Of a stretch of 64,000 bases of DNA, positions 12,350 through 36,295 are shown in pieces. The stretch comes from Solwaraspora sp. WMMD406 (GTDB lineage: Bacteria > Actinomycetota > Actinomycetes > Mycobacteriales > Micromonosporaceae). The DNA lies in NCBI RefSeq assembly GCF_029626025.1, contig NZ_JARUBF010000001.1:4278001-4342000 (forward strand), read 5' to 3'. The notes below the pieces were generated by a model that ran no database searches, had not been told where the DNA came from, and worked only from the letters and a program-made list of their open reading frames with translations. The position numbers and the translations under genes are program-made. Every line of letters starts with the position of its first letter. Positions within the stretch are counted from its first letter, which is position 1.

Positions 12350-12486
12350 GCCACCATCCAAGCATGATCGATTGCGGTTTGGCGGCAAGGGGTCCAGCTC
12401 GCGGCGGTCGCCGGCACTGATCGTAACCGCGTGGTGACGGGGCACCGGCGCGGTTTGCCCGCCGTGCCCCGGGGTAGCCGCGTCCG

Positions 12487-12867: not shown

Positions 12868-13004
12868 GTCGGCAGGTGAGGTGGGAAAGGCGGGTTATAG
12901 TGGCGCTCGCCAGGTGACAGGGCCCCTTGGGGGACCGCCGGGCTCGCTCGCCGCCGTGGTGTCGTCGGTCCGGTGGGACAGACCGGTCGGGGCGGGGAGA
13001 GGGA

Positions 13005-15755: not shown

Positions 15756-15830
15756 TCGGCGGGTGCTCGGGTCGGTTCGCCGGCGCGGGGCGGTTGTCAG
15801 TGGTGAGTGTCGAGGACCGAGGGACCGGGC

Positions 15831-16211: not shown

Positions 16212-16437
16212 GGTGTGACCGTCCGCAAGGTATGTTGTGCCCGCGAGTCTTGTTGACCCTTGTTTTCGGCGCTGGCTAGGCTCGCCCAGTCGACCGAGAA
16301 GCTAACAACAGTTGAGCGTTGTGGGAAATGTGCCGTACGGCACTGGGGAGCCCGCGCACCGGCCCTGTTCGCGGGTCCGGGGTTGTGGGTGACCCGGAGA
16401 GCCCCGACGCCGACCGAACAGATCCGTGAGGTGGTCC

Positions 16438-16890
16438 ATGACGCGCCCAGACGACGAGTTCCCCCCGCTCGACGTCACGTCGACGTTGAACCTTGGTTCG
16501 CTCGACGAAGTGCTGGAGGGGCCGGACACCGATGTGGTGCCGAGTCGGATGTCTGGTTCGTTGCCGCCGGGAATGGCGTTGCTGGTGGTGCGGCGTGGTC
16601 CGAACGCGGGGGCGAGGTTCCTGCTGGATCATGACGTGACGACCAGTGGCCGGCATCCGGACAGCGACATTTTCCTTGACGATGTGACGGTGTCGCGGCG
16701 GCACGCGGAGTTCCACCGTGATGGCGGTACCTTCACGGTGCGCGATGTGGGTAGCCTGAACGGCACCTATGTCAATCGTGAGCGGGTGGAGGCGGCGACC
16801 CTGAGCAACGGTGACGAGGTCCAGATCGGGAAGTTCCGGTTGGTCTTCATCGCCGGTCCGCGGCCGGACGAGGAGGTTGGCCGCGGTTGA
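16438..16890 (+). CDS. garA: FHA-domain regulator, GarA/OdhI type
   Basis: A 150-residue protein with an acidic N-terminus that carries a Thr-rich segment (DVTSTLNLGSLDE, residues ~13-25) and a C-terminal FHA domain (~50-140). FHA landmarks are GRHPDSDIFLDDVTVSRRHAEF and DVGSLNGTYVNRERV. In GarA/OdhI proteins, PknB/PknG phosphorylation of such an N-terminal Thr makes the FHA domain bind it and releases inhibition of 2-oxoglutarate metabolism enzymes. The position directly after gcvH is that of Rv1827 (garA). The exact phosphosite (TST) is inferred. GAGGTGG precedes the ATG. Confidence 0.9.
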   Translation: MTRPDDEFPPLDVTSTLNLGSLDEVLEGPDTDVVPSRMSGSLPPGMALLVVRRGPNAGARFLLDHDVTTSGRHPDSDIFLDDVTVSRRHAEFHRDGGTFTVRDVGSLNGTYVNRERVEAATLSNGDEVQIGKFRLVFIAGPRPDEEVGRG

Positions 16891-16962
16891 GGTTCGGGGC
16901 GCGGACGGAGCTGGCTTCGTGCGCGGTACGTGGCTGACGCCGGCTGGTGAGCCGGGGGTGTC

Positions 16963-17697
16963 GTGGTGACTGAGCAGGCGGCGGCCCGGGACGGCGCGGT
17001 CGCGGCTGCGCTGATGAGTATCGGTGAGGTGCTGGCGCAGTTGCGTCCGGAGTTCCCGGACACCACCATCTCGAAGCTGCGGTTCCTGGAGGCCGAAGGG
17101 CTGGTGGAGCCGCGGCGGACGCCGTCGGGCTACCGGAAGTACAGCTGGGACGATGTGGCGCGGCTGCGGTTCGTGTTGACGGCGCAGCGGGATCAGTACC
17201 TGCCGTTGCGGGTGATCCGGGAGCAGTTGGCGCAGCGGGACGAGCCGGCGTCGCGGGCGCGGCCGACGTTGGTGGCGGTGAGCCCGTCTGGTGAGGTGCC
17301 GTCGCGGCCGGTGGCGGAGCCGGTGGATTCCCGGTTGAGTCGGGCGGATCTGCTGGGGCGTAGTGGGTTGGAGCCGGCGGTGTTGGCCGAGGTGGAGCGG
17401 CTGGGTCTGGTGGTGGCGGTGGCGCCGGGCTGGTACGACGCGGACGGGTTGGCGGTCGCTGTCGCGGTGGCCGGGTTGTTGCGGCACGGGTTGGAGGTGC
17501 GTCACCTTCGGGCGGTGCGGGCGGCGGCGGATCGGGAGGTCGGGTTGTTCGCCCAGTTGGTGGCGCCGTTGGCGCGGCAGAGTGATCCGGCCGCGCGCGC
17601 TCGGGCGGCGGAGACGGCTCGGGAGTTGATCGGGTTGTCTCAGCAGTTGCATGCCGCGTTGGTGCGGGCTGGTCTGCGTGAGACGCTCGGCCGGTGA
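16963..17697 (+). CDS. ftsR: MerR-family regulator FtsR
   Basis: A 244-residue protein with an N-terminal MerR winged-helix domain (~15-85: MSIGEVLAQLRPEFPDTTISKLRFLEAEGLVEPRRTPSGYRKYSWDDVARL) and a longer C-terminal helical domain. It matches Rv1828/FtsR, known to activate ftsZ in corynebacteria and mycobacteria. There is no Cys-rich metal loop at the C-terminus, which agrees with a non-metal regulator. The gene sits third in gcvH-FHA-ftsR and has overlapping GTG start choices at 16963 and 16966. Confidence 0.9.
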   Translation: MVTEQAAARDGAVAAALMSIGEVLAQLRPEFPDTTISKLRFLEAEGLVEPRRTPSGYRKYSWDDVARLRFVLTAQRDQYLPLRVIREQLAQRDEPASRARPTLVAVSPSGEVPSRPVAEPVDSRLSRADLLGRSGLEPAVLAEVERLGLVVAVAPGWYDADGLAVAVAVAGLLRHGLEVRHLRAVRAAADREVGLFAQLVAPLARQSDPAARARAAETARELIGLSQQLHAALVRAGLRETLGR

Positions 17698-17763
17698 GGT
17701 GCTCGGCGCGACCAGACGGCTGTCTGTTCGTCCGTGTACCGTGCAGGGAGGGGCGGGAGCGGG

Positions 17764-18255
17764 ATGGACGACGACGACACGGAGGCGGCGGTGCGTGAGC
17801 TGAGCGTGGTCGGGGTTCGGGTGGAGTTGCCCACCAACCAGCCGATCGTGCTGCTGCGGGAGGTCGACGGGGACCGTTACCTGCCGATCTGGATCGGTGC
17901 GGTGGAGGCTACCGCGATCGCCTATGAGCAGCAGGGTGTGAAGCCGGCCCGGCCGTTGACCCATGATCTGTTGCGGGACATCCTGGCGGCGTTGCGGGCG
18001 CCGTTGCGGGCGGTGGAGATCACCGAGTTGAAGGACAACGTGTTCTACGCCGATCTGTTGATCGGGGACAGTGTGCGGGTGTCGGCTCGGCCGAGCGATT
18101 CGATCGCGTTGGCGTTGCGGGTCGGGGCTCCGATTCGTTGTGCTGAGCAGGTGCTCTCGGAGGCGGGCATCGTCATTCCGGACGAGCAGGAGGACGAGGT
18201 CGAGAAGTTCCGGGAGTTCCTGGATCAGGTGCGGCCGGAGGACTTCGCGGGGTGA
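17764..18255 (+). CDS. bifunctional nuclease family protein (DUF151)
   Basis: A 163-residue DUF151 protein with the family core LPTNQPIVLLREVDGDRYLPIWIGAVEATAIAYEQQG and RPSDSIALALRVGAPI. Plant and bacterial members have been reported to have DNase/RNase activity, but the role in actinobacteria is unsettled. It occupies the Rv1829 position between ftsR and a second MerR gene. The ATG at MDDDDTE is preceded by GGGAGCGGG. The length is normal for the family. Confidence 0.88.
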   Translation: MDDDDTEAAVRELSVVGVRVELPTNQPIVLLREVDGDRYLPIWIGAVEATAIAYEQQGVKPARPLTHDLLRDILAALRAPLRAVEITELKDNVFYADLLIGDSVRVSARPSDSIALALRVGAPIRCAEQVLSEAGIVIPDEQEDEVEKFREFLDQVRPEDFAG

Positions 18256-18431
18256 CCGGGCGGCCCGGTGTGGTTGCCGTGGTCGCCTTCGCGTACGCGC
18301 GCCGTTGCCGCCCGTACGCGGCGTGTCGCGCCTCGCGTTCCTGGTTCGGGTGGTGTCTGGCGTTAGGGTGGCCATGTCGATGGGCTCATGTTCCGTCCGG
18401 GTGTGGGCCGCACTGACGGGGAGGTTGCCGT

Positions 18432-19025
18432 ATGCCCGAGCAGCGAGAGCCTGACCCGGGATCGTCTGATCATCCGGGCTCGTCCGAGGGTTCGTCGGGC
18501 GGCGGGCTGGACGACGACCTGGTTGGCTACCGGGGAGTCACCGCGTGTCACGCGGTCGGGATCAGTTACCGACAGTTGGACTATTGGGCGCGGACGTCGC
18601 TGGTGGTGCCGAGTGTGCGGGACGCGGCGGGTTCGGGATCGCAGCGGCTGTACTCGTTTCGTGACCTGGTGGTGTTGAAGGTCGTGAAGCGGCTGCTCGA
18701 CGCCGGGGTGTCGTTGCAGAACATCCGTAAGGCGATCGAGACGTTGCGGTCGCGCGGGGTAGCCGATCTGGCCGGGATCACGTTGATCTCCGATGGCACG
18801 ACGGTGTACGAGTGCCGCTCTCCGGAAGAGGTCGTCGATCTGTTGCAGGGCGGCCAAGGGGTGTTCGGGATCGCGATCGGTGGGGCGTTCAAGGAGATCC
18901 AGGGTTCGTTGTCGCAGTTGCCGGCGGAGCCGGCGGTGGCCGAGTCGGTTTCGGCTGATCCGTCGGCGGTGGTGGACGTCAGCGACGAGTTGGCGGCCCG
19001 GCGTGCCCGGCGGCGCGCCGGCTGA
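18432..19025 (+). CDS. MerR-family transcriptional regulator (Rv1830 type)
   Basis: A 197-residue protein. After a disordered 35-residue start comes a MerR DNA-binding domain (~38-105: YRGVTACHAVGISYRQLDYWARTSLVVPSVRD, then QRLYSFRDLVVLKVVKRLLDAGVSLQNIRKAIETL). The rest contains a short effector region (DGTTVYECRSPEEVVDLLQGGQGVFGIAIGG). In M. tuberculosis the matching gene is Rv1830. It is the last gene before the glycine riboswitch and gcvP. The target genes are not known from the sequence. Confidence 0.88.
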   Translation: MPEQREPDPGSSDHPGSSEGSSGGGLDDDLVGYRGVTACHAVGISYRQLDYWARTSLVVPSVRDAAGSGSQRLYSFRDLVVLKVVKRLLDAGVSLQNIRKAIETLRSRGVADLAGITLISDGTTVYECRSPEEVVDLLQGGQGVFGIAIGGAFKEIQGSLSQLPAEPAVAESVSADPSAVVDVSDELAARRARRRAG

Positions 19026-19165
19026 CCCAGCGCCGGCCGCGGTCGTCGGCCGTGTCGGCCGGGCGTCGCCCCTGTGGTGTGGTCGGGCCGGCGGGTCACG
19101 GTGATCGACGTCACCGCAGCGCGGTGGCCGGGCAGCCGGTAGCGTGGACGTCGCCGCGTACCTGC

Positions 19166-19292
19166 GTGGGAGAGACCGTCGCTGTCCGGTGACGGCGCCG
19201 AAGGGGCAAATCCTCCCCGGAACCTCTCAGGCAAAAGGACCACCCGGGTTGGCGACTCTGAAGGCGACGGCGCCGACAGAGGGGGAGGTTGC
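19166..19292 (+). ncRNA. glycine riboswitch upstream of gcvP
   Basis: The 5' leader of gcvP carries the conserved glycine-aptamer sequence: GGGAGAGACCG at 19168, CGCCGAAGGGGCAA at 19196, CTCTCAGGCAAAAGGACC at 19224, then a GACTCTG and CCGACAGAGGGGGA segment that closes the fold. One complete aptamer is visible. A second tandem aptamer is not obvious, although the 19263-19292 part could form a ghost aptamer. Glycine binding would raise expression of the P protein. The leader has no stop in the gcvP frame, so gene callers may wrongly extend gcvP through it. Confidence 0.9.
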
Positions 19293-19320
19293 CCGTCGAC
19301 CTCACCCCGGGAGCCGCCTG

Positions 19321-22137
19321 GTGTCCACGTCGTCTTCGTTCGCCGACCGTCACATCGGCCCTGATCAGGCAGCCGCGCGCCGCATGCTCGACGTCGTCGG
19401 TTTCGCCAGCGTCGACGACCTGATGGACGCCGCGATTCCCGAGGTGATCCGCTGGCGGGACCGGCTCGATCTGCCGGAGCCGATGGACGAGCCGCAGGTG
19501 ACGGCGGCGCTGCGGGAACTCGCCGCCGCCAACACGCCCGCCGTGTCGATGATCGGCCTGGGTTATCACGGCACCCACACCCCGGCGGTGATCCGCCGTA
19601 ACGTGTTGGAGAATCCGGCCTGGTACACCGCCTACACCCCGTACCAGCCGGAGATCAGTCAGGGCCGGCTGGAGGCGCTGCTGACGTTCCAGACGATGGT
19701 GGCGGACCTGACCGGGCTGGCGACGGCGAACGCGTCGATGTTGGACGAGGCGACCGCCGCGGCGGAGGCGATGGCGTTGGCGCGGCGGGTGTCGGCGTCG
19801 ACCAGCGCCGTGTACGTCGTCGACGCCGGCGCGTTGCCGCAGACGGTCGCGGTGCTGCGCAGCCGCGCCGAGCCGCTCGGTGTCGACGTGCGGGTGTGTG
19901 ACGTCTCCGGTGACCTGCCGGGGGAGTACTTCGGGATGCATCTGCAGTTCCCGACGGCGTCGGGTCTGCTGCGCGACGACCGGGCGGTGGTCGCGGCGGC
20001 GCACGCCGTCGGGGCGGTGGTGACCGTCGCCGCGGATCTGTTGGCGTTGACGCTGCTGCGTCCGCCGTCGGCGATCGGCGCGGACATCGCGGTAGGCACC
20101 AGCCAACGGTTCGGGGTGCCGATGGGTTTCGGGGGGCCGCACGCCGGTTACCTGGCGGTGCGCGCCGGCTTGGAACGGATGCTGCCGGGCCGGCTGGTCG
20201 GGGTGTCACGGGACGCCGACGGCCGGCGCGCCTACCGGCTGGCGTTGCAGACCCGGGAGCAGCACATCCGCCGGGAGAAGGCGACCAGCAACATCTGCAC
20301 CGCGCAGGTGCTGCTGGCGGTGCTGGCCGCGATGTACGCCGTCTACCACGGGCCGCAGGGGCTGCGGGCGATCGCGGAACGCACCCATGGCATGGCGGCG
20401 CGGTTGCGGGCCGGGTTGCGGGCCGGTGGGGTGTCCGTCGGCGACGGGCCGCTGTTCGACACGGTGACGGCGACCGTGCCCGGCGGCGCCGGGCGGGTGG
20501 TGGCGGCCGCGGCGGCGCGGCGGGTCAACCTGCGGCTGGTCGACGCGGACACGGTCGCGGTCACCTGTGACGAAACGACCACCGAGGCGCATCTGGCGGC
20601 GGTGTGGGCGGCGTTCGGGGTGGCGCCGTACGTCGGTGACGTCGACGAGCCGATCCCGGCCGGGTGGCGGCGCGACGACGACATCCTGGCCCATCCGGTG
20701 TTCCACGACCACCGCAGCGAGACGGCGATGCTGCGGTACCTGCGTCGGCTCGCCGGGGTCGACTACGCCCTGGACCGGGGGATGATTCCGCTGGGTTCGT
20801 GCACGATGAAGCTGAACGCGGCGGTGCAGATGGAGCCGATCAGCTGGCCGGGGTTCGCCGATGTGCATCCGCTGGCGCCGGCGGAGCAGACCGTCGGCTA
20901 CCGGCGGCTGATCGGTGAGCTGGAGACCTGGCTGGCGGAGGTGACCGGCTTTGACGCGGTCAGCGTGCAGCCCAACGCCGGTTCGCAGGGGGAGTTGGCG
21001 GGGTTGCTGGCGATCCGCGGCTACCACCGGCAGCGGGGGCAGGCCGGTCGGGACGTGTGTCTGATCCCGTCGTCGGCGCACGGCACCAACGCGGCGAGCG
21101 CGGTGATGGCCGGGATGCGGGTGGTGGTGGTCGGCTGCGACGCCGACGGCAACGTCGACGTGGCCGACGCGCAACGGTTGATCGACGCCCACCGTGACAC
21201 CCTCGCGGCGATCATGGTGACGTATCCGTCGACGCACGGCGTCTACGAGGAAGGCATCGCGGATCTGTGCGCCCGGGTGCACGACGCCGGCGGGCAGGTG
21301 TACGTCGACGGGGCGAACCTCAACGCGCTGCTCGGCTACGCCCGGCCAGGCCGGTTCGGTGCCGACGTGTCGCATCTGAACCTGCACAAGACGTTCTGCA
21401 TTCCGCACGGCGGCGGCGGCCCGGGGGTGGGGCCGGTGGCGGTCCGCGCCCATCTGGCTCCGTTCCTGCCGGCGGATCCGATGGGCGGCGGCACCGGCCC
21501 GGTGATTTCGGCCGCCCGGTACGGGTCGGCGGGCATCCTGCCGATTCCGTGGGCGTACCTGCGGTTGATGGGCACCGATGGTCTGGTGCGGGCGACCGGG
21601 GCGGCGGTGTTGGCCGCCAACTACGTCGCGGCCCGGCTGCGCGGGCACTACCCGGTGTTGTACAGCGGCAACAAGGGGCTGGTCGCTCACGAGTGTGTGC
21701 TGGATCTGCGGTCGTTGACGAAGGCGACCGGCGTCACCGTGGAGGACGTGGCGAAACGGCTGATCGACTACGGTTTCCACGCCCCGACGATGTCGTTTCC
21801 GGTGGCGGGCACGTTGATGGTGGAGCCGACCGAGAGTGAGGACCTGGCCGAACTGGACCGGTTCTGCGCGGCGATGATCGCGATCCGGGCCGAGATCGAC
21901 CAGGTGGCGCAGGGGGTGTGGTCGGTGGCGGACAGTCCGCTGCGGCAGGCACCGCACACCGCGGCGCTGGTCACCGCCGACGACTGGCCGTACCGGTATC
22001 CGCGGTCGGTGGCCGCGTATCCGGTGCCGGCGCTGCGGGCGGACAAGTACTGGCCGCCGGTGCGGCGGGTCGAGGGCGCCTACGGGGACCGGAACCTGGT
22101 GTGTGCGTGTCCGCCGCCGGAGGCGTTCGCCCAGTGA
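19321..22137 (+). CDS. gcvP: aminomethyl-transferring glycine dehydrogenase (P protein)
   Basis: A 938-residue full-length P protein that decarboxylates glycine and passes the aminomethyl group to GcvH. Family landmarks are [20 protein letters not shown], the [14 protein letters not shown] segment, and the PLP-lysine loop [20 protein letters not shown] around residue 690. The GTG at 19321 is chosen because it follows the riboswitch, has GGGAG at the right distance, and begins the typical [15 protein letters not shown]. Expression is probably glycine-inducible through the upstream riboswitch. Its stop overlaps the GTG of a truncated oxidoreductase. Confidence 0.95.
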
Positions 22138-22346
22138 GTCAGCACCTCATGCCGCGGCCCGGCAGCGACCTCGTCGGCGTCACCGGAGCCACCGGGCGTC
22201 TCGGCGGGCGCGTCGCACACCGCTTGGCCGCTGCCGGCGCCGCTCAACGTCTGCTGGTGCGCGACCCGGCTCGTGCCCCCGAACTGCCCGACGCCTGCGC
22301 CGTACGGGCCGACTTCCCGGGCCGCGATGTCGCAGCGGGTCGTTAG
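22134..22346 (+). pseudogene. N-terminal fragment of an NmrA/SDR-like NAD(P)-binding oxidoreductase
   Basis: Seventy residues that begin a Rossmann fold, LVGVTGATGRLGGRVAHRLAAAGAAQRLLVRDPARAPELPDA, then stop after FPGRDVAAGR. Full-length relatives are about 280 residues. The remainder is absent: the DHFR-like gene begins 11 bp later. This suggests deletion of the rest, with the junction near 22330-22346. The GTG overlaps the gcvP stop, so it may still be translated. The nucleotide-binding TGATGRLG motif is intact. Confidence 0.7.
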
Positions 22347-22357
22347 AGTCGCCAGCC

Positions 22358-22915
22358 ATGGGACTCCTGACCTTCAGCCTCAACGTCACCCTGGACGGTT
22401 GCGTCGACCACCGGGAGGGGATCGCCGACGACGAGACACGCGCCCTGTTCACCCGCCTCATGGACGCCAGCGGGGCGATGCTGTGGGGCCGGGTCACCTA
22501 CGAGATGATGGAGAGCCACTGGCCGGCCGTCGCCCGCGGTGACGGGCAGGCGCCGCCGGCCGTCCGCGACTGGGCGGTCAAGCTGGAGGCCAGACCCAAA
22601 TATGTGGTGTCGTCGACACGCAGCGACTTCCCCTGGGCCAACAGCCACCACATCGGCGGCGATCTGCGTGAGGGCGTGCGCAAGCTCAAGGACGCGACCC
22701 CGGCCGGGGTCCTCCTCGGCAGCGGCACGCTGGCGACCGCGCTCGACCGGCTGGACCTGATCGACGAATACCAGCTGCTCGTCCACCCGAGGATCGCCGG
22801 CCACGGCCCGACCCTGCACCAGGGCGGACTGCCCGGCACCCGCCGGCTCGAACTGCTCTCGGCACAACCGCTGCGCAACGGCGCCGTGGTCATGCACTAT
22901 CGCCGCGCCCGCTGA
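22358..22915 (+). CDS. dihydrofolate reductase-like (RibD C-terminal) family protein
   Basis: A 185-residue reductase of the RibD C-terminal/DHFR-like family. It opens LLTFSLNVTLDGCVDHREG, has MLWGRVTYEMMESHW at ~50, KYVVSSTRSDFPW at ~85, LLGSGTLATALDRLDLIDEYQLLVHP at ~120 and ends RNGAVVMHYRR. These are the usual strands and the NADPH-binding region. The substrate of such stand-alone proteins is unknown, and they should not be read as folate enzymes. It lies just after the truncated oxidoreductase. Confidence 0.88.
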   Translation: MGLLTFSLNVTLDGCVDHREGIADDETRALFTRLMDASGAMLWGRVTYEMMESHWPAVARGDGQAPPAVRDWAVKLEARPKYVVSSTRSDFPWANSHHIGGDLREGVRKLKDATPAGVLLGSGTLATALDRLDLIDEYQLLVHPRIAGHGPTLHQGGLPGTRRLELLSAQPLRNGAVVMHYRRAR

Positions 22916-23289
22916 ACCACCGGGAACGCGTCGCCGTGAGTCGACCGGTGGCGTCGCGTCGCGCTCTTCGGGACATGTCCTCGTCGTCGAGGCGTCCGTC
23001 GGCGCCGCGCGGCGAGCGCGAGGTGGCCGCGCCGATCGAGGCGGTCGGTCATCGACGAATCGTCGGGCGACACGCCGAGGACCGGCCGGGGTGCGGCCGG
23101 TGCGGGTGGCGGTGGATCGGCGGCTCGACGGTGAGCCAACGGTGCGCGGAGGCGGCACCGGATGCGACGGGACATCGGTGGCTCCACCCGGGTGGAGTGC
23201 TTCCCCTGTGGTGTGGCGTCGCGGGGGAGACGGTGTGGCCGGGGGGCGGGTCCGGGGCGGCGCCATCGCCGCCCGGGGGCGCTACGCGG
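22916..23289. other. 374-bp intergenic region, nothing recognised
   Basis: Between the DHFR-like gene and the convergent DUF5999 gene. Open frames exist on both strands but lack family features or start signals, and I see no strong hairpin or repeat. Confidence 0.4.
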
Positions 23290-24312: not shown

Positions 24313-25491
24313 TCACAACACCACCATCCGGGGATGGGGATGGCGCAGGAAGTCGTGGTGCGAGATGTCCCAGCCGTACGCTCCGGCCCGACCGAACACC
24401 ACCACGTCACCGGCCCGCACCCGCGCCACCGGCTGATCCCGACACAACACGTCCCGAGGCGTACACAACTCACCCACCGCGTCCACCGCCACCCCCGCCG
24501 CCTCCGGACGCGGAAACGCCCACCCGTCCCGATCCACCGGCACCACCGCGAACGGATGGCTGTACCCCCACGCCGCCGGCAACCGGAAATGGTGCGTCCC
24601 GCCCCGCACCACCACGAACCACCGACCGTGGGTGCGTTTCACATCCACCACCTCGGCCGCGTACCACCCCGCGTCGGACACCAACAACCGACCCGGCTCG
24701 AACACCAACCGCACCCCCGCCGGCACCGCCACCCCCGCCAACCCGGCCCGCAACACCTCCAGGTCGAACCGCCCCGAACCCACATGATCCACCCCGAACC
24801 CGCCGCCCACGTTCACGTACTCCAACGCCACCCCGAACCGCCGCGCCGCCGCGACCGCCCACCGCACCGACCCGTCCACGAACCGCACATGCGCCGCCGC
24901 GTCCAGATTGTTCGACACCGCGTGCAGGCTGAATCCCACCACCCGTACCCCCGCCGACCCCGACGCCACCGCCAGCACCTCACCCAACTGCTCCTCGTCC
25001 ACCCCGAACGGCGTCGGCACCCCCGCCATCCGATGACTACCCGCCACCCCGCCACCACGCCGGTTCACCCGCACCCCCACCTGCGCCACCACGCCCGCCG
25101 CCCGCGCCACCGCGTCCAGCCGCCGCAACTCCCAACCGCTCTCCACATTCACCGTCGCGCCCGCCGCCACCGCCGCCCGCAACAGCTCATCGGTCTTCGC
25201 CGGCCCACCACACACCACCTGACGGGCCCCCGCCGCCACCGCCACCGCCAACTCACCCCCCGACGCCACCTCCACCCCGTCGGTCACCCGCGCCAACTCC
25301 GCCACCACCTCCGGATGGCCGTTGGCCTTCATCGCGTACAGCAGCACCGCGCCCGCCGGCAACGCCGCCCGCACCGCAGCCGCCGCCGCCCGCACCGCAG
25401 CCCGGTCGTACACGTACGCGCACACCGGATCCGGCTCGGCCGCCAACCCCCGCACCGCCGCGACCACCCGATCTGGCACCACCACCACCAT
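24313..25491 (-). CDS. siderophore-type PLP-dependent decarboxylase (fold type III)
   Basis: A 392-residue enzyme related to diaminopimelate/ornithine decarboxylases. PLP-lysine is in YAMKANGHPEV (~50), the HxxS segment is SLHAVSNNLD (~190), the Gly loop is VNVGGGFGVD (~220), FEPGRLLV is at ~260, and the substrate Cys region reads GELCTPRDVLC (~340). Together with two IucA/IucC synthetases this is the set seen in carboxylate siderophore clusters (compare SbnH, PvsE), where the enzyme makes a diamine or ethanolamine-like building block. Its start overlaps the stop of the upstream synthetase (TGATG). The siderophore itself is not identified. Confidence 0.85.
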   Translation of the reverse strand: MVVVVPDRVVAAVRGLAAEPDPVCAYVYDRAAVRAAAAAVRAALPAGAVLLYAMKANGHPEVVAELARVTDGVEVASGGELAVAVAAGARQVVCGGPAKTDELLRAAVAAGATVNVESGWELRRLDAVARAAGVVAQVGVRVNRRGGGVAGSHRMAGVPTPFGVDEEQLGEVLAVASGSAGVRVVGFSLHAVSNNLDAAAHVRFVDGSVRWAVAAARRFGVALEYVNVGGGFGVDHVGSGRFDLEVLRAGLAGVAVPAGVRLVFEPGRLLVSDAGWYAAEVVDVKRTHGRWFVVVRGGTHHFRLPAAWGYSHPFAVVPVDRDGWAFPRPEAAGVAVDAVGELCTPRDVLCRDQPVARVRAGDVVVFGRAGAYGWDISHHDFLRHPHPRMVVL

Positions 25492-27251
25492 CACCACCGC
25501 CTCACACCCGACGACGGCGACGCCCCCGTGAACCCGCCGTCGGCGATCGGATTACGCACCGGCACGTACACGTCACCCGACCCCGCCAACCGCATCCGCA
25601 CCAACGCCTTGTGCGCCACCATCGGCGCCGTCAACGCCGCGTGATCCTCCGCCGCCCACCCCGCACACCCCGGATCCGAGCGCAACCCGTCGTACACCTC
25701 GTCCACCACCGCCCGCACCGCCCGCCACCCCGCCGCCTCGTCCAACCCGTGCGACCCCACCAACCCCACCACCACCTCACCCACATGCGCCTGCAACGCC
25801 GTGTACCCCACCTTCGCCCGCATCACCCGCGGATCGTCCGTGACCACCACCGACCCCGGCGCCAACTCCACCACCACCCCCGCCGCCGCCAACCGCGACC
25901 GCAACAACCGCAACCCCGCGAAATCCCGCACCACCAACCGGTACGGCACCCCACCCCGAAACGTCGGCAGACAGTTCTGCAGATGCGCCTCCAACGCCAC
26001 CCCGAACCGCGTCGCCAACCGCAACAACGGCGGCAACACCACCCCCGCGTACGCCCCCACGAACGCCAACGCCGCCGCCGGACGATCCGCCAACCCCCGC
26101 ACCCGCGCGAACTCGTCCACCCGCGCCGACAACACCCCCGCCGTCGCCAACGCCACCCCCGACACCGGCACCTCACCCGCCCCCACCACCCCCGCCAACC
26201 CGTCCCGCACGATCACCGACACGTCCCGACCCGACCCCACCCGCACCGCCGCGCCCGCCACCTCCGGCAACAACACCAACCGCGCCGCCGCCACCTCGTC
26301 ACCGGCCACCAACCCCGCCAACACCCGCGACAACACCGGCCCGTTGCGCGTCGACGCCACCGAGATCGTCCGCCGCGTCGACGTCACCTGAATGTCCAAC
26401 GACACCTTCAGATACCGCCGCCGCCCATCCGCACCCGCCGGCAACAACACCGTCCGCACCGCCGCCGTCGGCACCGCCGGCAACACCTGCGGCAACACCC
26501 GCATCACGCCCGCCCGGACCAGATCCGCGTACCGGTCCCGCAGCACCGCCGCCCACTGCCACACATGCACCGGCCGCACCACCCATCCCGGCGGCGCCAC
26601 CGGCACCTGCGGATACCACCGGGCCAACAGCCCCGACACGTCGTCACCGACGCACAGATCGGCCCGCACCGCCACGAACCCCACCCCCGTGCCCGGCGAC
26701 TCGACATCGTGGGCCAACACGTCCGCCACCGACCACCCCAACCGGGTACGGCCACAGGGATGCAGATTGTGCCCCCGCAACGCCGCCGCCCGCTCCACGC
26801 CCGCCACCCACCCGTCCACCTCGCCGACCGCGGCCGTCGACCACCCGGCGACCGGCACCGGAGGGCGCGCCGCCGCCACCGCCAGGTTCACCACGGCGTT
26901 GGTCAACTCCGCCGCCAACGCCCAACCCCGCCGATCCCACACCGACACCGGCAACACATCCACCGGATCGTCCCCACTCCACCCATAAGCTGCGAAACGG
27001 TCGAAACCATGCCAACGGCCCGACGAAAACCGGTCCCGCGCCCCCGAAACGTCCTCCCGACACAACGCGTCCACCAACCGACCCCCCACCACCCGCGCCG
27101 CCCACGGCACCGCCGCCCGGAACCCCGCCACCAACTCCGGCGCCACCCGACCCAACTGCCCGGCCGCCGCCTCCACCGCCACCGGCAACCGCCCCGCACC
27201 CGCCCCACACCCACACCACCGACCCGCCGCCACCACCGACACCCCGCTCAC
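25491..27251 (-). CDS. IucA/IucC-family NIS siderophore synthetase (second)
   Basis: A 586-residue NRPS-independent siderophore synthetase. Family landmarks: NLHPCGRTRLGWS (~195), KVSLDIQVTSTRRTIS (~305) for ATP and substrate, EAHLQNCLPTF (~495) with the conserved EAHxQN, and a C-terminal FerR/FhuF-like region. The usual HPWQ motif reads HVWQW (~255). The GTG start overlaps the previous synthetase stop (GTGA). A longer open frame exists upstream, but it is only a Gly/Val-rich shadow of the first synthetase. It should couple a carboxylate to an amine or alcohol; order of action is unknown. Confidence 0.88.
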   Translation of the reverse strand: MSGVSVVAAGRWCGCGAGAGRLPVAVEAAAGQLGRVAPELVAGFRAAVPWAARVVGGRLVDALCREDVSGARDRFSSGRWHGFDRFAAYGWSGDDPVDVLPVSVWDRRGWALAAELTNAVVNLAVAAARPPVPVAGWSTAAVGEVDGWVAGVERAAALRGHNLHPCGRTRLGWSVADVLAHDVESPGTGVGFVAVRADLCVGDDVSGLLARWYPQVPVAPPGWVVRPVHVWQWAAVLRDRYADLVRAGVMRVLPQVLPAVPTAAVRTVLLPAGADGRRRYLKVSLDIQVTSTRRTISVASTRNGPVLSRVLAGLVAGDEVAAARLVLLPEVAGAAVRVGSGRDVSVIVRDGLAGVVGAGEVPVSGVALATAGVLSARVDEFARVRGLADRPAAALAFVGAYAGVVLPPLLRLATRFGVALEAHLQNCLPTFRGGVPYRLVVRDFAGLRLLRSRLAAAGVVVELAPGSVVVTDDPRVMRAKVGYTALQAHVGEVVVGLVGSHGLDEAAGWRAVRAVVDEVYDGLRSDPGCAGWAAEDHAALTAPMVAHKALVRMRLAGSGDVYVPVRNPIADGGFTGASPSSGVRRW

Positions 27252-28873
27252 CCCAACCCCGCCAACGGATTGTCCACCCACGCCCACCGCACCGCCAACG
27301 GATCCGCCGCCAACCGCATCGACAACGTCGCCTTCACCGGCCACCGCCCCCCGAACACCTCCCGCGCCACCACCCGGCGCACCGACACCGGTAACCCCGC
27401 CACCACCTGCCGCACCCGCCCCGCCACCGCCGCCCACAACCGGGCCGGCTCCACCCCGAACTCCCGCGCAAGCACCGCCACCACCTCACCCAACGCCACC
27501 CCCACCGCCGCCCACGCCGTCACCCGCACCTCCACCGGATCGACACACTCCACATCGCCCGCCAGACGCGGCACCACACCCCACACCGCTGCCAACCGCG
27601 ACACATCCACCCGAACCCCACCCACATCCCGATACCACACACCCACCAACCGGCCACCCCGCACCACCACCAACACGTTCTGCCCATGCGCCTCCAACCC
27701 CACCCCCCACCCCGCCATCGTCACCACCGGCCCACACAACACCCCCGCCAGATCCGCCACGAACCCCACCGGATCCCCGCCGTACCCCGCCCGTACCAAC
27801 CCCGCCACCACCGACGGCCCACCCGGCACCCCCAGCGGCGCCGCCAACGCCGCCACCGGCAACACCTGCGACCCCGCCCGCACCCGCGGCACCCGCCGCC
27901 ACACCACCGCCAACGACCGGCACCAGCCCCCGTCGACCACCACCGCACCCGCCGCCACCTCCGGCAACACCCGCAAACCCGACATCCGCCCCGCCAACCC
28001 CGTCAACAACCCCGTCACCACCGGACCATTACGCACCGCCGCCGGCGACACCGTCCGCACCGCACTCGTCATCTGCACGTCCACCGCCGTCTTCACCTGC
28101 CACGACCCGTCACCCACCGACACCGTCCGCAACGACATCAACGGCCGCCCCCGCACCACCCGCCCCGTACGCCGCAACCCCGCCACCCCCGACACCACAT
28201 GCTCGGCCTGCCACGGATGCACCGGCAACACCGGCGGCAACCGCACCCCCGTACTCACCCACCGATCCACCGGCACCGCCACCAACTCCAGACCCACCAC
28301 CCGCCCGTGCTCCGGCCCGTACCGCAACACCTCCGCCGTCGACATACCCACCCGCGTCCGGCACCCCGGATGCAACGGATGCCCGTCCACCACCACCTGC
28401 TCCCACTCCACCGCCGACCGCACCACACCACCATCACCACGCCCCGCCGCCGCCGTCCGCCCCGCCCGAGCCAACGCCAGGTTCGCCACACTGTTGGCCA
28501 CCTCACCGGCCACCACGTCCGCACCCGACACCCCCAACGCCGCCACCACCTCCGCCGGATCCGCACACTCCCGCCCCTGCACCGACACCCGCAGACCCGC
28601 ACCCACCACCGCGAACGGCTCCGCCGCCGCCACCGGCCCCACCACCCGCCGGCCATCCACCAACTCCACCACCAACCGATCCGACACCACCCGCCGCGAC
28701 ACCACCGGCGGCAGCGGCTCCCGGGCCACCGCCCCCCACACCCGCGCCAACACCGCCGCCCGCGCCCCCGGAACCGCCGCCACCAACTCCGCCACCAACT
28801 CCGGCCGATCCCGACCCACCGCCGCCACCGTCGCCGCGACATCCGGACACACCACACCCGCCACCGGCCGCAT
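27248..28873 (-). CDS. IucA/IucC-family NIS siderophore synthetase (first)
   Basis: A 541-residue synthetase and first gene of the operon. Motifs: HPLHPGCRTRVGMSTAEVL (~170), VHPWQAEHV (~235), KTAVDVQMTSAVRTVSP (~285), and EAHGQNVLVVV (~410). It keeps the HPWQ motif that the second copy has changed. The start is firm: AAAGGAGGGTGTG directly precedes the ATG. Codon third positions are almost all G/C, leaving very long open frames on the other strand. No exporter, receptor or regulator gene lies next to the operon. The adjacent genes (peptide deformylase and an exonuclease-family gene) are unrelated. Confidence 0.9.
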   Translation of the reverse strand: MRPVAGVVCPDVAATVAAVGRDRPELVAELVAAVPGARAAVLARVWGAVAREPLPPVVSRRVVSDRLVVELVDGRRVVGPVAAAEPFAVVGAGLRVSVQGRECADPAEVVAALGVSGADVVAGEVANSVANLALARAGRTAAAGRGDGGVVRSAVEWEQVVVDGHPLHPGCRTRVGMSTAEVLRYGPEHGRVVGLELVAVPVDRWVSTGVRLPPVLPVHPWQAEHVVSGVAGLRRTGRVVRGRPLMSLRTVSVGDGSWQVKTAVDVQMTSAVRTVSPAAVRNGPVVTGLLTGLAGRMSGLRVLPEVAAGAVVVDGGWCRSLAVVWRRVPRVRAGSQVLPVAALAAPLGVPGGPSVVAGLVRAGYGGDPVGFVADLAGVLCGPVVTMAGWGVGLEAHGQNVLVVVRGGRLVGVWYRDVGGVRVDVSRLAAVWGVVPRLAGDVECVDPVEVRVTAWAAVGVALGEVVAVLAREFGVEPARLWAAVAGRVRQVVAGLPVSVRRVVAREVFGGRWPVKATLSMRLAADPLAVRWAWVDNPLAGLG

Positions 28874-29017
28874 CACACCCTCCTTTCGACAACCGAAGAC
28901 CGCCACCAGCATTGTCGACCACCACCGGCACCCGCAGGACCCGACCCACCCCGCCCGCTACCAGCCACCCGCAGGACCCGACACCCCCACCCGGCCACCA
29001 CCCCGTAGGGTGCTCAC

Positions 29018-29851
29018 GTGCGCATGGCCACCTTCAACCTGCTGCACGGACGCTCACCACACGACGGCCGCGTCGACGCCGACCGGCTCACCGCCGCCGT
29101 CACCACCCTCGACGCCGACATCCTCGCCGTCCAGGAAGCCGACCGCGCCCAACCCCGCAGCGGCCACCTCGACCTCACCGCCCTGGCCGCCACCGCCCTG
29201 GCCGCCCCCCACCACCGCTTCGCCGCCGCCATCGTCGGCACCCCCGGCGAACAGTTCCGCACCCCCGACCACGACCACGACGGACGACACGAACCCTGCT
29301 ACGGCATCGGCCTCATCAGCCGCTACCCGGCCCGACACTGGCAGATCACCCGGCTCGACCCCGCCCCGCTGCGCTCACCCGTACTCACCGCCGACCCCGA
29401 CCCCCGACTCATCCTGCTCCGCGACGAACCCCGCGTCCTGCTCACCGCCGTACTCGACACCCCCCACGGACCGCTCACCGTCGCCACCACCCACCTGTCG
29501 TTCGTCCCCGGCTGGAACCTGCGCCAGCTCCGCACCGTCGTCCGCACCCTCCGGCTGCTGCCACCCCCACGGATCCTGCTCGGCGATCTCAACATGCCCG
29601 CCGCTGTCGCGGCCACCATCACCGGCTGGCGGCCCCTCGCCCGGCGCCCCACCTACCCGGCCGTCCGACCCCGCGTCCAACTCGACCACATCCTGCTCGA
29701 CCCGCGCGGCGCCCCGCCGGCCCTCGGCACCGTCACCGCCGTCGACACACCGCCCCTGGACGTCTCCGACCACCGGGCGCTCCTCGTCACCGTCGCCACC
29801 CCCACGCCGCCGGCTCAGTCACCGCCGCCCACCACCCGCCGCAACGACTGA
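29018..29851 (+). CDS. endonuclease/exonuclease/phosphatase family protein
   Basis: A 277-residue metal-dependent hydrolase of the DNase I/exonuclease III fold. Visible: MATFNLLHGRSP with the metal Asn, VQEADRAQ with the catalytic Glu (~45), TTHLSF (His ~165), GDLNMP (~195), and the C-terminal VSDHRALLV with Asp-His. The substrate could be nucleic acid, a sugar phosphate or a phospholipid; the sequence does not say. It has no signal peptide. Its 3' end overlaps the convergent recombinase gene by 37 bp. Confidence 0.88.
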   Translation: MRMATFNLLHGRSPHDGRVDADRLTAAVTTLDADILAVQEADRAQPRSGHLDLTALAATALAAPHHRFAAAIVGTPGEQFRTPDHDHDGRHEPCYGIGLISRYPARHWQITRLDPAPLRSPVLTADPDPRLILLRDEPRVLLTAVLDTPHGPLTVATTHLSFVPGWNLRQLRTVVRTLRLLPPPRILLGDLNMPAAVAATITGWRPLARRPTYPAVRPRVQLDHILLDPRGAPPALGTVTAVDTPPLDVSDHRALLVTVATPTPPAQSPPPTTRRND

Positions 29852-30816
29852 TTCGTCCGGTTCGACCGCACCGCCGCCCGTTGCTGACCAGCCGTCACCT
29901 CGATGTAATTCTGACTCGACGTCAGACTCCCGTGACCCAGCAGCCGCATGATCTCCGCCGCGCTCGCCCCGTCCTCGGCCAACCGGGTCGCGAACGTGTG
30001 CCGCAACGCGTGCAACTGGGCGCCACGCGGCACCCGCTCGGTGATCCCGGCCCGCCGGAAACACGACCGGACCAGATACTGCAGCGCGCCGCGCCGCATC
30101 GCTGCTCCGGCCCGGTCCACCAGCAGCATGTCCTGGTCGCGCACCGACCGGCCGCCGAACCGCCGCCGCCGGCTCGCCAGATACGCCCGCACCACCGCGT
30201 CCAGCTCCGGCTCGATCGGCACCGTCCGCAGCCGCCCGCCCTTGCCCGTCACCTCGATCCGGCGTTCACCGCTGCGTCCGGCCAGGGAACCGACCCGCAG
30301 GGCGAGCAGTTCCCCCAACCGCAGGCCGGCGCACAACGCCAACGCAATCACCAGCAGATCCCGCTCCGGCCACGGATCGCGCTGCCGTTCGTCGCCACGG
30401 GCCGCGGCCGCGAGCAGCGTCTCCGGTGTCTCCTCGCCACGGAGCGGTTTCGGCAGCGGCAGGGGAGCGCGCGGGCGACCCACCGCCGGCATCGGGTTAC
30501 CGGCGACCACGCCCTCGGCGACCAGGAACGTGAAGAACGAATTCCAGGTCGACCAGGCGCGGTGGACCGACGCGGGGGCGCGGGGCGCGGCGAACCGGGC
30601 GAAAGCCCCCCGCAGCGTACGGGCGTCCAGGGCGTCGAGCGGCAGGTCGGCCCAGGCCAGGGGAGCGGGGGACCAGGTGTCGGCGATCAGCCGCAGCACC
30701 GAGGTCAGGTCCCGGCGGTAGGCCTGCAGGGTGTGTGGGGAGGGTTTCCGGGAGGCGCGGTCGGCCAGGAACTCGTCGACCCAACTCGCTGCGGACAACA
30801 TCGCAAAATGGTGCAT
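29815..30816 (-). CDS. Xer-type tyrosine recombinase
   Basis: A 333-residue integrase-family recombinase. An N-terminal core-binding SAM-like domain (~9-105: SWVDEFLADRASRKPSPHTLQAYRRDL) is followed by the catalytic domain. All catalytic residues are present: Arg166 (AGLRLGE), Lys192 (TGKGGR), His269 and Arg272 (LHALRHTF), His295 (LGHGS) and Tyr304 (QNYIEV). The ATG (MHHFAM) lies inside the left arm of a 28-bp dif-like palindrome at 30807-30836, and a dif-like site is 0.3 kb upstream. The frame is open further upstream, but that part is Arg-rich and not integrase-like. It may be a terminus-linked or mobile Xer rather than the housekeeping XerC/XerD. Confidence 0.9.
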   Translation of the reverse strand: MHHFAMLSAASWVDEFLADRASRKPSPHTLQAYRRDLTSVLRLIADTWSPAPLAWADLPLDALDARTLRGAFARFAAPRAPASVHRAWSTWNSFFTFLVAEGVVAGNPMPAVGRPRAPLPLPKPLRGEETPETLLAAAARGDERQRDPWPERDLLVIALALCAGLRLGELLALRVGSLAGRSGERRIEVTGKGGRLRTVPIEPELDAVVRAYLASRRRRFGGRSVRDQDMLLVDRAGAAMRRGALQYLVRSCFRRAGITERVPRGAQLHALRHTFATRLAEDGASAAEIMRLLGHGSLTSSQNYIEVTAGQQRAAVRSNRTNQSLRRVVGGGD

Positions 30817-30836
30817 AACGGATATTATGCACCATT
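30807..30836. repeat. perfect inverted repeat with dif geometry over the recombinase start
   Basis: Two arms, ATGGTGCATAA and TTATGCACCAT, are exact inverted complements around the 6-bp core CGGATA; one further base pair extends each arm. The 11-6-11 layout and the inner CATAA/TTATG match Xer recombination sites. The recombinase ATG (30816, minus strand) lies inside the left arm. It could be the recombinase's own crossover site, an autoregulatory operator, or both. Confidence 0.75.
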
Positions 30837-31131
30837 CTTCACGGTCGCGGATAGTGGGCGGCCGCCGGAGAAGGGGAGCGCCGCGCCGGTGGGGGGTGAC
30901 GCGACACCCGGGTCGCGTCGCACCGACGCGACCGCGCGCACGACAGCCGCGCCGCCGGCACCGGGCGCGTCCGACGTCGCGGGCCGCGCGATGACGGCGT
31001 GCGACACCGAGCCGTACGGAGCCCGGGCCGGCGAGGCCGCCGGGCGAAGTTCCGACCGGGCAGGTAAGTCGTGGCGTTCGTCGGCGACCGCCCGTGTTCG
31101 CCTCGCTCCGGACACGGCCCGGCGCCCGCTT

Positions 31132-31159
31132 AGTTGACATAATGTATATTATCGGACCA
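31132..31159. other. chromosomal dif site (Xer recombination site)
   Basis: Left arm AGTTGACATAA, core TGTATA, right arm TTATCGGACCA. On the reverse strand this agrees with the actinobacterial dif consensus I recall (CCGATAAT, then ACATTATGTCAA) at all but three of 28 positions. It is AT-rich in a very GC-rich, gene-free 384-bp gap (30817-31200) between the recombinase gene and an SDR gene. As the presumed site of XerCD dimer resolution it should mark the replication terminus. Confidence 0.8.
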
Positions 31160-33854: not shown

Positions 33855-34853
33855 TCAGTGGGTGGGGAGGTCGGTGACGCTGACGCGGCGGCGGAAGACC
33901 CAGTAGGTCCAGCCCTGGTAGAGCAGGACGACGGGGGTGAGCAGGGCGGCGACCCAGGTCATGATCGTGAGGGTGTAGGTGGTGGAGGCCGCGTTGGTGG
34001 TGGTGAGGGTGCCGGCGGGGTCGCTGGTGGAGGGTAGGACGGTCGGGAACAGGGCGGTGAACAGGGCGGCGACGGCGAGGCCGATGGCGGTGGCGGTGCC
34101 GGTGAAGGCCCAGCCTTCGCGGCGTACCCGGTTGGCGGCCAGGGCGGCGACGAGGGCGAGTGCGGCGGCGACGGCGAGGCCGACGGCGGTGGGGTTGGCG
34201 CGGATGGTGAGGGTCCAGGTGAGGAACGCGACGGCGAGGGCGGCGGCGCCGATGCCGGTCCAGCCGGCGACGGTGTTGGCGCGGCCGCGGATGTCGCCGG
34301 TGGTTTTGAGGGCGAGGAACACGGCGCCGTGGGTGACGAACAGGGCGGTGGTGGTGGTGCCGCCGAGCAGGGCGTACGGGTTGAGCAGGGTGAGCAGGGT
34401 GCCGGTGTATTCGTGGTCGGCGTCGAGGGGTACGCCGCGCACGATGTTGGCGAAGGCGACGCCCCAGAGGATGGCGGGCAGCAGTGAGCCGATGAAGATG
34501 GCGTTGTCCCAGCGGTTGCGCCAGTGGGGTTCGTCTCGTTTGTCGCGGTATTCGAAGGCGACGCCGCGCAGGATGAGGGCGACGAGGATGAGCAGCAGGG
34601 GCAGGTAGAAGCCGGAGAAGAGGGTGGCGTACCACTCGGGGAAGGCGGCGAACATGGCGCCGCCGGCGGTGAGGAGCCAGACTTCGTTGCCGTCCCAGAC
34701 GGGGCCGATGGTGGCGATGGCGGCGCGGCGTTCGGGTTCGGTGCGGCCGATGAGGCGGGCGAGGACGCCGACGCCGAAGTCGAAGCCTTCGAGGATGAAG
34801 TAGCCGGTGAACAGGACGGCGATGAGCCCGAACCAGACGGTGGTGAGTTCCAC
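33855..34853 (-). CDS. cydB: cytochrome bd ubiquinol oxidase subunit II
   Basis: A 332-residue integral membrane protein with eight or nine hydrophobic helices. The N-terminal YFILEGFDFGVGVLARLIGR and GPVWDGNEVWLLTAGGAMFAAFPEWYATLFSGFYLPL are typical of CydB. It is the partner of CydA in the high-affinity, proton-pump-free quinol oxidase used under low oxygen or stress. It lies 17 bp downstream of cydA in the same operon. The cydDC exporter genes needed for assembly are not next to it, so they are probably elsewhere. Confidence 0.95.
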   Translation of the reverse strand: MELTTVWFGLIAVLFTGYFILEGFDFGVGVLARLIGRTEPERRAAIATIGPVWDGNEVWLLTAGGAMFAAFPEWYATLFSGFYLPLLLILVALILRGVAFEYRDKRDEPHWRNRWDNAIFIGSLLPAILWGVAFANIVRGVPLDADHEYTGTLLTLLNPYALLGGTTTTALFVTHGAVFLALKTTGDIRGRANTVAGWTGIGAAALAVAFLTWTLTIRANPTAVGLAVAAALALVAALAANRVRREGWAFTGTATAIGLAVAALFTALFPTVLPSTSDPAGTLTTTNAASTTYTLTIMTWVAALLTPVVLLYQGWTYWVFRRRVSVTDLPTH

Positions 34854-34870
34854 GAGGGGTCTCCGGTGGG

Positions 34871-36295
34871 TCAGTGGGTGGCGGCGAGGGGCCGGGCTGA
34901 GTTGGCGTCGGTGTCGTCGCGGTCGTCTGGTGGGGGCTGGGGTGTGGTGTCGGGGAGGCCGGCTTTGGCGTAGCGGATGAGGAGTTTGACTTCGATGGCG
35001 GCGAGGGTGGCGTAGATGAGGGTGAAGGCGGTGAAGCTGGTGAGGACTTCGGTGAGGGAGACGCTGCGGCTGACGCCGTCGCGGGTGAGCATTTCACCGA
35101 AGACGATCCAGGGTTGGCGGCCCATTTCGGTGAAGATCCAGCCGAAGCTGTTGGCCAGCAGTGGCAGGACGGGCAGGATGAGGCCGGCGCGCAGCAGCCA
35201 GCGGCCGGTGGGGGTGCGGCCGCGGCGGGTGGTCCACAGGGCCCAGAGGGCGATGGCGGCGGCGGCGAGGCCGAATCCGATCATGAAGCGGAAGCTCCAG
35301 TAGGTGACGGGGATGATCGGGGTGTAGCTGCCGGGTCCGTACTGGGCGGCGTATTGGGCTTGGAGGTCGGTGATGCCGTGGACTTCGCCGGTGGGGTCGC
35401 CGGTGGCCAGCCAGGAGAGCAGGTACGGGATTTTGAAGGCCCAGATTTCGCGGCTGCCGTCGAGGGTGCCGACGGTGACGACGGAGAACGAGGCGGGGCT
35501 TTCGGTGGTGTAGAGGGCTTCGGCGGCGGCCATTTTCATGGGTTGGACCTGGGTCATGATTTTGCCTTGGATGTCGCCGGTGCCGATGACGGCGGCGGTG
35601 GCGACGATGGTGGTCCAGGCGCCGAGTTTGGTGGCGGTGCGGAAGGCCGCGGTGTCGGGGCCGTCGGGGTGGCGGATGAGGTGCCAGAGCGCGACGGCGA
35701 GGATGAGGGCGCCGGCGACCATGAAGCAGCCGGCGAGGGTGTGGGGGAAGGTGATGAGGGTGACTTTGTTGGTGAGGACGGCGATGAAGTCGGTGAGTTC
35801 GGCGCGGCCGGTGTCGGGGTTGATGCGGTAGCCGACGGGGTTCTGCATCCAGGAGTTGGCGGCGAGGATGAACCAGGCGCTGATGATGCTGCCGAACGAG
35901 GCGAGCCAGATGGTGGCGAGGTGGAGTGCTTTGGGGAGTCTCCCCCAGCCGAATATCCAGAGTCCGAGGAAGGTGGATTCGAGGAAGAAGGCGAGGAGGG
36001 CTTCGATGGCGAGGGGTACGCCGAAGATGTCGCCGACGAAGCGGGAGTAGTCGCTCCAGTTCATGCCGAATTGGAATTCCTGCACGATGCCGGTGACGAT
36101 GCCCATGGCGAAGTTGATGAGGAATAGTTTTCCGTAGAATTTGGTGAGTTTGAGGTAGCGGTCGTCGCCGGTGCGGTGCCAGGCGGTTTGCAGGATGGCG
36201 ACGAGCAGGGACAGCCCGATGGTGAGGGGGACGAACAGGAAGTGGTAGACGGTGGTGACACCGAACTGCCAGCGGGCTATGTCGAGCGCGTCCAC
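34871..36295 (-). CDS. cydA: cytochrome bd ubiquinol oxidase subunit I
   Basis: A 474-residue subunit with about nine membrane helices and the haem/quinol-binding features of CydA: the b595/d axial His near the N-terminus (RWQFGVTTVYHFLFVPLTIG), GMNWSDYSRFVGDIFGVPLAIEALLAFFLEST, and a Met/His-bearing later region. The Q-loop is of the short type. The GTG start has TTGGGGAG before it. Two overlapping dyads at 36314-36338, about 19 bp upstream of the start, form a likely operator. It is the first gene of cydAB. Confidence 0.95.
   Translation of the reverse strand: MDALDIARWQFGVTTVYHFLFVPLTIGLSLLVAILQTAWHRTGDDRYLKLTKFYGKLFLINFAMGIVTGIVQEFQFGMNWSDYSRFVGDIFGVPLAIEALLAFFLESTFLGLWIFGWGRLPKALHLATIWLASFGSIISAWFILAANSWMQNPVGYRINPDTGRAELTDFIAVLTNKVTLITFPHTLAGCFMVAGALILAVALWHLIRHPDGPDTAAFRTATKLGAWTTIVATAAVIGTGDIQGKIMTQVQPMKMAAAEALYTTESPASFSVVTVGTLDGSREIWAFKIPYLLSWLATGDPTGEVHGITDLQAQYAAQYGPGSYTPIIPVTYWSFRFMIGFGLAAAAIALWALWTTRRGRTPTGRWLLRAGLILPVLPLLANSFGWIFTEMGRQPWIVFGEMLTRDGVSRSVSLTEVLTSFTAFTLIYATLAAIEVKLLIRYAKAGLPDTTPQPPPDDRDDTDANSARPLAATH

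Follow-up and report, generated by a model that had tools for sequence, protein, structure and literature searches.

Xer systems that run on a single recombinase, with a site that adjoins the recombinase gene or is symmetric, are already known from XerS, XerH and XerL, and the available parts of two papers describe such systems as alternatives to XerCD/dif (PMC5357621, PMC9765430). The accessible text of the second paper has difSL and difH always near their xer genes, and it describes the arms of XerL dif sites as long uninterrupted inverted repeats (PMC9765430).

The locus described here lies in a window of 64,000 nucleotides (the whole stretch of DNA that was analysed) and comprises a third Xer-type tyrosine recombinase, T3, and a palindromic Xer-type site, pal. 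Specifically, it resembles XerS/difSL of streptococci and lactococci in that a single recombinase gene directly adjoins its own site, but the centre of difSL measures 11 bp and its arms are unequal, whereas pal has a 6-bp core and near-symmetric arms, and XerS is described in the available text as an alternative to XerCD whereas the T3 genome has XerCD/dif as well (PMC5357621). XerH/difH of Helicobacter and Campylobacter likewise pairs a single recombinase with a site near its gene (PMC9765430, in the part available); the accessible text of PMC5357621 describes XerH as a single-recombinase system, whereas T3 coexists with XerCD/dif. With XerL/dif of Legionellales, T3/pal shares a single recombinase and uninterrupted inverted arms (10 or 12 bp in XerL sites), and one plasmid-borne xerL is known, just as T3 has plasmid relatives; in Legionella pneumophila, however, more than 400 kb separate xerL from its dif, whereas pal lies in the start of the T3 gene and beside an XerCD-type dif (PMC9765430, same portion). 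Finally, T3/pal has its fold, catalytic residues and 11-6-11 site geometry in common with XerC/XerD and dif, but the XerC/XerD site is asymmetric whereas pal is near-symmetric, and T3 forms a separate clade. The initial annotation had stated that no standard system is built this way, which is too strong in view of xerS directly adjoining difSL (PMC5357621) and of the XerL and difH precedents (PMC9765430), as far as the available text of both goes. The one literature library searched yielded no account of a third Xer recombinase or a palindromic site beside dif in actinobacteria or in an XerCD host.

Results

Pal occupies positions 30807-30836 of the window and reads AATGGTGCATAA-CGGATA-TTATGCACCATT, the core being TATCCG on the strand of the T3 gene. 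The inverted arms around a 6-bp core that the initial annotation had reported are real and perfect, although each measures 12 bp and not the claimed 11, and the Xer-site geometry that it saw in them, a 6-bp core between dif-like inverted arms, is borne out. This geometry alone is not unique to pal, for the window contains five perfect 12-6-12 inverted repeats, whereas 100 first-order Markov sequences average 0.01. The other four, at window positions 11736, 33778, 50964 and 63951, also match at other gap lengths and are probably longer hairpins, such as terminators. The pattern GN2CATAAN6TTATGN2C, with up to 2 mismatches, has a single match in the window, where 0.11 would be expected. The 7.16-Mb genome contains CATAAN6TTAT in just two places, namely pal and a dif 0.3 kb away. 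The rarity of pal thus resides in its dif-like sequence, not in the geometry of the repeat.

The T3 gene (29815-30816, minus strand) encodes 333 amino acids beginning MHHFAMLSAASWVDEF. Its product consists, by Pfam, of an integrase core and a SAM-like domain, and the residues R166, K192, H269, R272, H295 and Y304, which we take to be the catalytic R, K, H/R, H and Y, are kept in all 28 aligned T3 proteins, with the same R/K/H/R/H/Y set in 7 of 7 more distant ones. By these residues and the two-domain fold, T3 is a Xer-type tyrosine recombinase. Its nearest named families are XerC and XerD, yet it scores only 160 bits against the NCBIfam XerC model (cut-off 335) and 135 bits against the XerD model (cut-off 330), and its XerC-model score is far under those of the host XerC and XerD. 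Since the host XerC and XerD also fall short of both cut-offs, a tree is the better test of orthology. In a midpoint-rooted tree, for which the program warned of long branches, T3 and its plasmid relatives stand on one side and XerC and XerD on the other (100/100). T3 is therefore not an XerC or XerD orthologue: it belongs to a separate clade, and the genome has its own XerC and XerD. The host XerC adjoins a dprA-like gene and the host XerD lies near a ParA-like gene, both neighbours being judged by eye from their translations.

An AlphaFold model of T3 (mean pLDDT 82, pTM 0.60) is poorest around Y304, with pLDDT below 50 at residues 298-307. A fold search with this model returned matches of modest TM-score (about 0.4-0.6), among them a mycobacteriophage integrase, XerA, XerD and XerH, with XerH-difH structures included. 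The phage relatives of T3 amounted to 27 records, none of which spanned 80% of the query.

The T3 start codon lies inside one arm of pal (30814-30816, minus strand, first base 30816), as had been annotated, and it takes the same place in close relatives. An alternative in-frame ATG exists downstream, at 30801; the close relatives favour the one inside pal. This close group, defined by T3 proteins at least 65% identical to that of the window, comprises 24 loci from the window's family (L001, L008-L030) and 64 named Micromonosporaceae loci (L101-L164), of which L139 ends within the gene, leaving 87 analysable loci. The search for the palindrome beside orthologues that the initial annotation had proposed found pal and the ATG in all 87 (83 distinct): a strict pattern, with the ATG in the right arm, is present in 24 of 24 family loci and 57 named ones, while the remaining 6 named loci have a degenerate copy of pal with the ATG in place. 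The frame is open from this ATG in 86 of the 87, the exception being L028, in which T3 is frameshifted after about 50 codons while pal and ATG are intact, through either sequencing error or decay. A conserved RKPS-type motif was found in 73 of the 83 distinct sequences, and its distance from the ATG takes six values, all in whole codons. Arm symmetry among the strict-pattern sites of the close group ranges from 7 to 12 of 12, which counts against the reading of T3/pal as a single-recombinase module.

Were pal a chance palindrome or a terminator hairpin, as the five perfect repeats in one window could suggest, it should not recur at the same place in 87 of 87 loci, nor does its AT content of 0.63 resemble the 0.28 of the window. 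This conservation refutes the idea, to which we assign next to no probability.

Within pal, the hexamer TAATAT (30822-30827, minus strand) runs across arm and core at -11 to -6 from the ATG and is a candidate -10 box, present at this position in 71 of the 83 distinct close-group sequences. No ribosome-binding sequence is visible between TAATAT and the ATG, and no conserved -35 box is visible in the close-group sequences. Actinobacteria have leaderless genes, and the pattern is consistent with a -10 box whose transcript begins at the ATG. These features suggest a leaderless promoter within pal in the close group, and with a candidate -10 box and ATG inside the site, T3 bound to pal should repress T3. 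No core starting with TAT was found outside the window's order, either in L165-L180 or in 15 loci with wide flanks from f31 (taken to be the family of Nocardiopsis and Actinorugispora), as expected if TAT is kept in the close group as part of a promoter. The overlap of site and start codon holds in the close group and is mostly absent in more distant relatives. Specifically, among eight more distant T3 loci of the same family (L031, L033, L035, L036, G010, G013, G032, G051), L035 alone places an in-frame ATG within the site, and gene and site can be as much as 9.5 kb apart. Across more distant relatives in general, this distance ranges from about 60 bp to 9.5 kb. The earlier proposal that recombination at the site would directly control expression does not follow, in that exchange between two identical copies regenerates the same sequence and expression need not change; binding could do so.

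The chromosomal dif, overlooked in the initial annotation, lies at 31132-31159 (plus strand) and reads AGTTGACATAA-TGTATA-TTATCGGACCA, with the XerD-type arm on the left. It agrees with the conserved parts of the Frankia alni dif as printed in the available portion of PMC3025954, and it stands 51.5% of the chromosome away from dnaA. Judged from its sequence, as a single 28-bp XerCD motif opposite the origin, this is the chromosomal dif. The gap between pal and dif (30837-31131) holds only mechanical, program-listed open reading frames. Elsewhere, the window carries two IucA/IucC-FhuF siderophore synthetase genes (25491-28912) and cytochrome bd oxidase genes (33855-36295).

Of 125 loci, 122 contain both pal and dif; the group medians of the distance between them are 290-494 bp, and the largest distance is 5.4 kb. 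The sample is made up of 83 distinct close-group loci, 15 from f31, 4 from named Nocardiopsaceae, 11 from Pseudonocardiales and 12 others; it leaves out L139, L185 and L186 (both G067), L187 (G098), the close-flank f31 loci and seven XerC-less genomes. The dif pattern used for distant genomes admits TGACATAA. The three misses are L030 (short flank), L184 and L179; the genome of L030 recurs as L188, with dif 5.4 kb away, and L240 and L167 are probably one genome. Across 101 genomes, which are related and not independent, T3 and the site GCATAAN6TTATGC occur together in 29, T3 only in 7, the site only in 2 and neither in 63 (Fisher p 2e-16). T3 above threshold is missing in 65 of these 101 genomes, which indicates that it is dispensable.

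Extra pal-like matches in G007, G010, G012, G017 and G023 were set aside: inspection by eye showed little symmetry in their flanks, and no recombinase-like frame turned up within 12 kb in a crude motif test. The piece of G098 that was read contains no pal. Of the two T3 copies in G067, one is on a 199-kb contig (L185) and the other, on the chromosome, is a shortened T3-like match that has a dif-like palindrome (L186, G067:C1 at about 155 kb), far from the dif of G067; the 15-kb pieces read around them contain no canonical dif.

The distance between pal and its gene varies by group. The Lentzea and Amycolatopsis loci (L169-L178, L180) have pal 63-252 bp ahead of the match start, and the start codon is not shared. 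Among 19 dif-bearing f31 loci, there are four in which pal precedes the gene by 0.3-0.5 kb and is separated from dif by 0.37-0.57 kb; the other 15, which have no site within 1.5 kb of the gene, were fetched with wide flanks and proved to have pal 0.30-0.95 kb from dif. Pal lies about 3 kb on the other side of the gene in two of these 15 and 1.7-6.9 kb upstream of it, 0.35-0.95 kb from dif, in the remaining 13.

These distances bear on whether pal is only an operator, at which T3 or another protein controls the gene without any recombination. In the close group, both the start codon and the candidate -10 box fall within pal, an ideal position for a repressor. In 13 of the 15 f31 loci with wide flanks, by contrast, pal stays by dif and far upstream of the gene, which argues that it is not merely an operator, and the 11-6-11 geometry recurs on plasmids; the 6-bp core, the dif-like arms and the conserved active-site residues likewise suit a recombination site. 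A purely regulatory pal is accordingly an unlikely reading, and we continue to regard pal as a putative recombination site.

Strand-polar motifs define the terminus more closely. In the dif-bearing genome G266, the most strand-polar octamer is CGGGGGAG, octamers having been recounted after masking of a CRISPR-like array that had inflated some ranks. This array, at G266:C1:1451768-1495722, has a CRISPR-like repeat with a 15-base piece present 113 times (99 and 14 on the two strands). The core GGGGGAG switches strand at dif/pal, with a best interval in G266 of 1,298,207-1,299,017. In the window it occurs 13 times between 11277 and 62543, with 6 copies on the plus strand (11277 to 23223) and 7 on the minus strand (33196 to 62537), all pointing toward dif/pal; this 13 of 13 is weak alone because an equally high maximum was reached in 500 sign shuffles. 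Pooled over loci, the strand counts are 154:1 to the left and 4:168 to the right of the pair in Micromonosporaceae (55 of 64 loci usable), 95:2 and 9:146 in f31 with the named Nocardiopsaceae (19 of 19 loci), and 28:0 and 1:48 in Pseudonocardiales (11 of 12 loci). GGGGGAG, or CGGGGGAG, is thus a candidate FtsK-orienting sequence in three pooled actinobacterial groups. It behaves like the architecture-imparting sequences of PMC5993296, and the motif itself was not found in the available part of that paper. The shorter GGGGAG, which switches at the site in G246 and 22 bp off in G266, was discarded for being 15 kb off in G309 and 4.8 kb off in the window, and GC-skew switch points, at 32-100 kb off, were too coarse.

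Pal lies at the replication terminus. All 15 GGGGGAG copies within the gap between dif and pal point toward dif and not toward pal, which makes dif the focus, with pal inside the same zone, and rules out pal as the focus of chromosome polarity. As such, if the motifs steer FtsK, they serve dif.

Seven f31 genomes with T3 (G246, G461, G309, G400, G352, G152, G416) have a single XerC/XerD-class protein above 200 bits, where all 14 comparison genomes have two (the XerC match in G326 holds a stop), and this lone protein groups with XerD on the tree (6 of 7 placed). No canonical dif was found in the seven, and allowing 2 mismatches gave one weak match, in G416. The six genomes whose contigs reach far enough contain instead a new symmetric 11-6-11 palindrome, ACC..ACAGAA-N6-TTCTGT...GGT, 0.43-0.70 kb from pal (G246:C4:697273, G309:C9:274912, G352:C37:114053, G461:C70:24646, G416:C29:29217, G152:C30:3235). 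Its arms match at 10 or 11 of 11 positions, its right arm resembles the XerD arm of dif, and the polar motifs of these six genomes switch within intervals of 0.7-3.8 kb that hold both pal and the new palindrome. This palindrome is presumably dif turned symmetric for XerD alone, still beside pal. The idea that pal replaces dif in these genomes was dropped, as the new palindrome stands in the place of dif. The seven genomes form one clade, which indicates one event. G246 has a second, imperfect copy of the new palindrome 74 kb away. The G400 contig shows no strand switch and no intact pal or new palindrome; it has a degenerate pal-like site near the gene.

T3-like proteins of 31-41% identity are encoded on 59 plasmid records, nearly all from Mycobacterium, Mycolicibacterium and Rhodococcus. 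These are the closest plasmid relatives found and, like T3, most of the 14 whose stretches were fetched have an upstream palindrome, but their modules are plasmid-borne whereas that of the window lies beside a chromosomal dif. Specifically, in 11 of the 14 stretches a dif-like 11-6-11 palindrome lies no more than 600 bp upstream of the recombinase gene or the gene preceding it, a twelfth (L238) has one about 1 kb upstream, and L228 and L237 have no recognisable site. The plasmid palindromes score 15-19, against at most 15 for control windows of the same loci and 14 for shuffles; the score of 15 at L229 is also attained by control windows, and a control window of L238 that scored 18 was taken as that locus's own distant site. 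On Rhodococcus aetherivorans plasmid pN2 (L236), two different dif-like palindromes, one of them perfect, lie upstream of one recombinase, at 1192 and 1577. By position and geometry, the plasmid modules look like multimer resolution modules and presumably act as such.

The plasmid relatives could also suggest that pal is the attachment site or fossil of a terminus-exploiting, IMEX-like element, with T3 as its former integrase, and the patchy occurrence of T3 among genomes and the position of the module on either side of dif in different groups point the same way. A CATAAN6TTAT search of the window's own genome, however, found no second dif and no element flanked by two dif-type sites, only one dif and one pal. 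The neighbouring genes with Pfam matches are ordinary, the T3 tree broadly tracks organism groups (two pairs of the window's family branch apart), and the catalytic residues and the site are kept over several families. Such an origin is improbable. T3 at pal might alternatively be an accessory or structural factor of the terminus, acting by holding sister termini, in decatenation or by helping XerCD, rather than a resolution system of its own. That pal stays near dif even where dif seems changed in sequence, and that the polar motifs focus on dif, would agree with such a role, whereas the spacing between pal and dif, mostly 0.3-1 kb but ranging from 237 bp to several kb, is unlike that of a fixed-geometry accessory site, and the fetched plasmid stretches show that plasmid relatives carry the site too. 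We consider this role doubtful as well, and favour recombination by T3 at pal.

Discussion

T3/pal is probably a single-recombinase, palindromic-site resolution module that sits beside XerCD/dif. The arms of pal are near-equivalent by sequence and one recombinase gene lies beside the site. T3 would occupy the two near-identical arms as a homodimer and, as a tetramer, exchange strands between two copies of pal brought together on dimeric, or catenated, DNA. The module would be self-contained and lies at the replication terminus, mostly no farther than about 1 kb from dif; on plasmids, it would presumably act on plasmid multimers. In the close group (Micromonosporaceae), pal may also be the start region of the gene, with a -10 box over one arm and the core and translation from the other arm, and T3 bound at pal would then shut off its own expression.

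The site, its ATG, the catalytic residues, the adjacency to dif, the plasmid relatives and the position at the terminus are all read from the sequence. From these features we infer T3 binding and recombination at pal, a leaderless transcript, autorepression and the resolution of dimers.

More broadly, and tentatively, several actinobacterial families may run two Xer systems at one terminus, namely a heteromeric XerCD/dif and a homomeric T3/pal mostly within about 1 kb of each other. In this proposal, which we hold with less than even confidence, a large Micromonosporaceae group would be autoregulated through a leaderless promoter in the site, and one related clade would be XerC-less, with a symmetric, presumably XerD-only dif beside pal.

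A conserved pair of systems raises the testable question why two are kept: one might act in sporulation, on catenanes or when the other fails. If the proposal is true, recombination site, promoter and start codon would coincide in one compact feedback design. The switch of dif from two proteins to one would have a natural example in the XerC-less clade, which would also argue that homomeric recombinases are matched by symmetric sites and that dif and pal stay paired even when dif itself changes.
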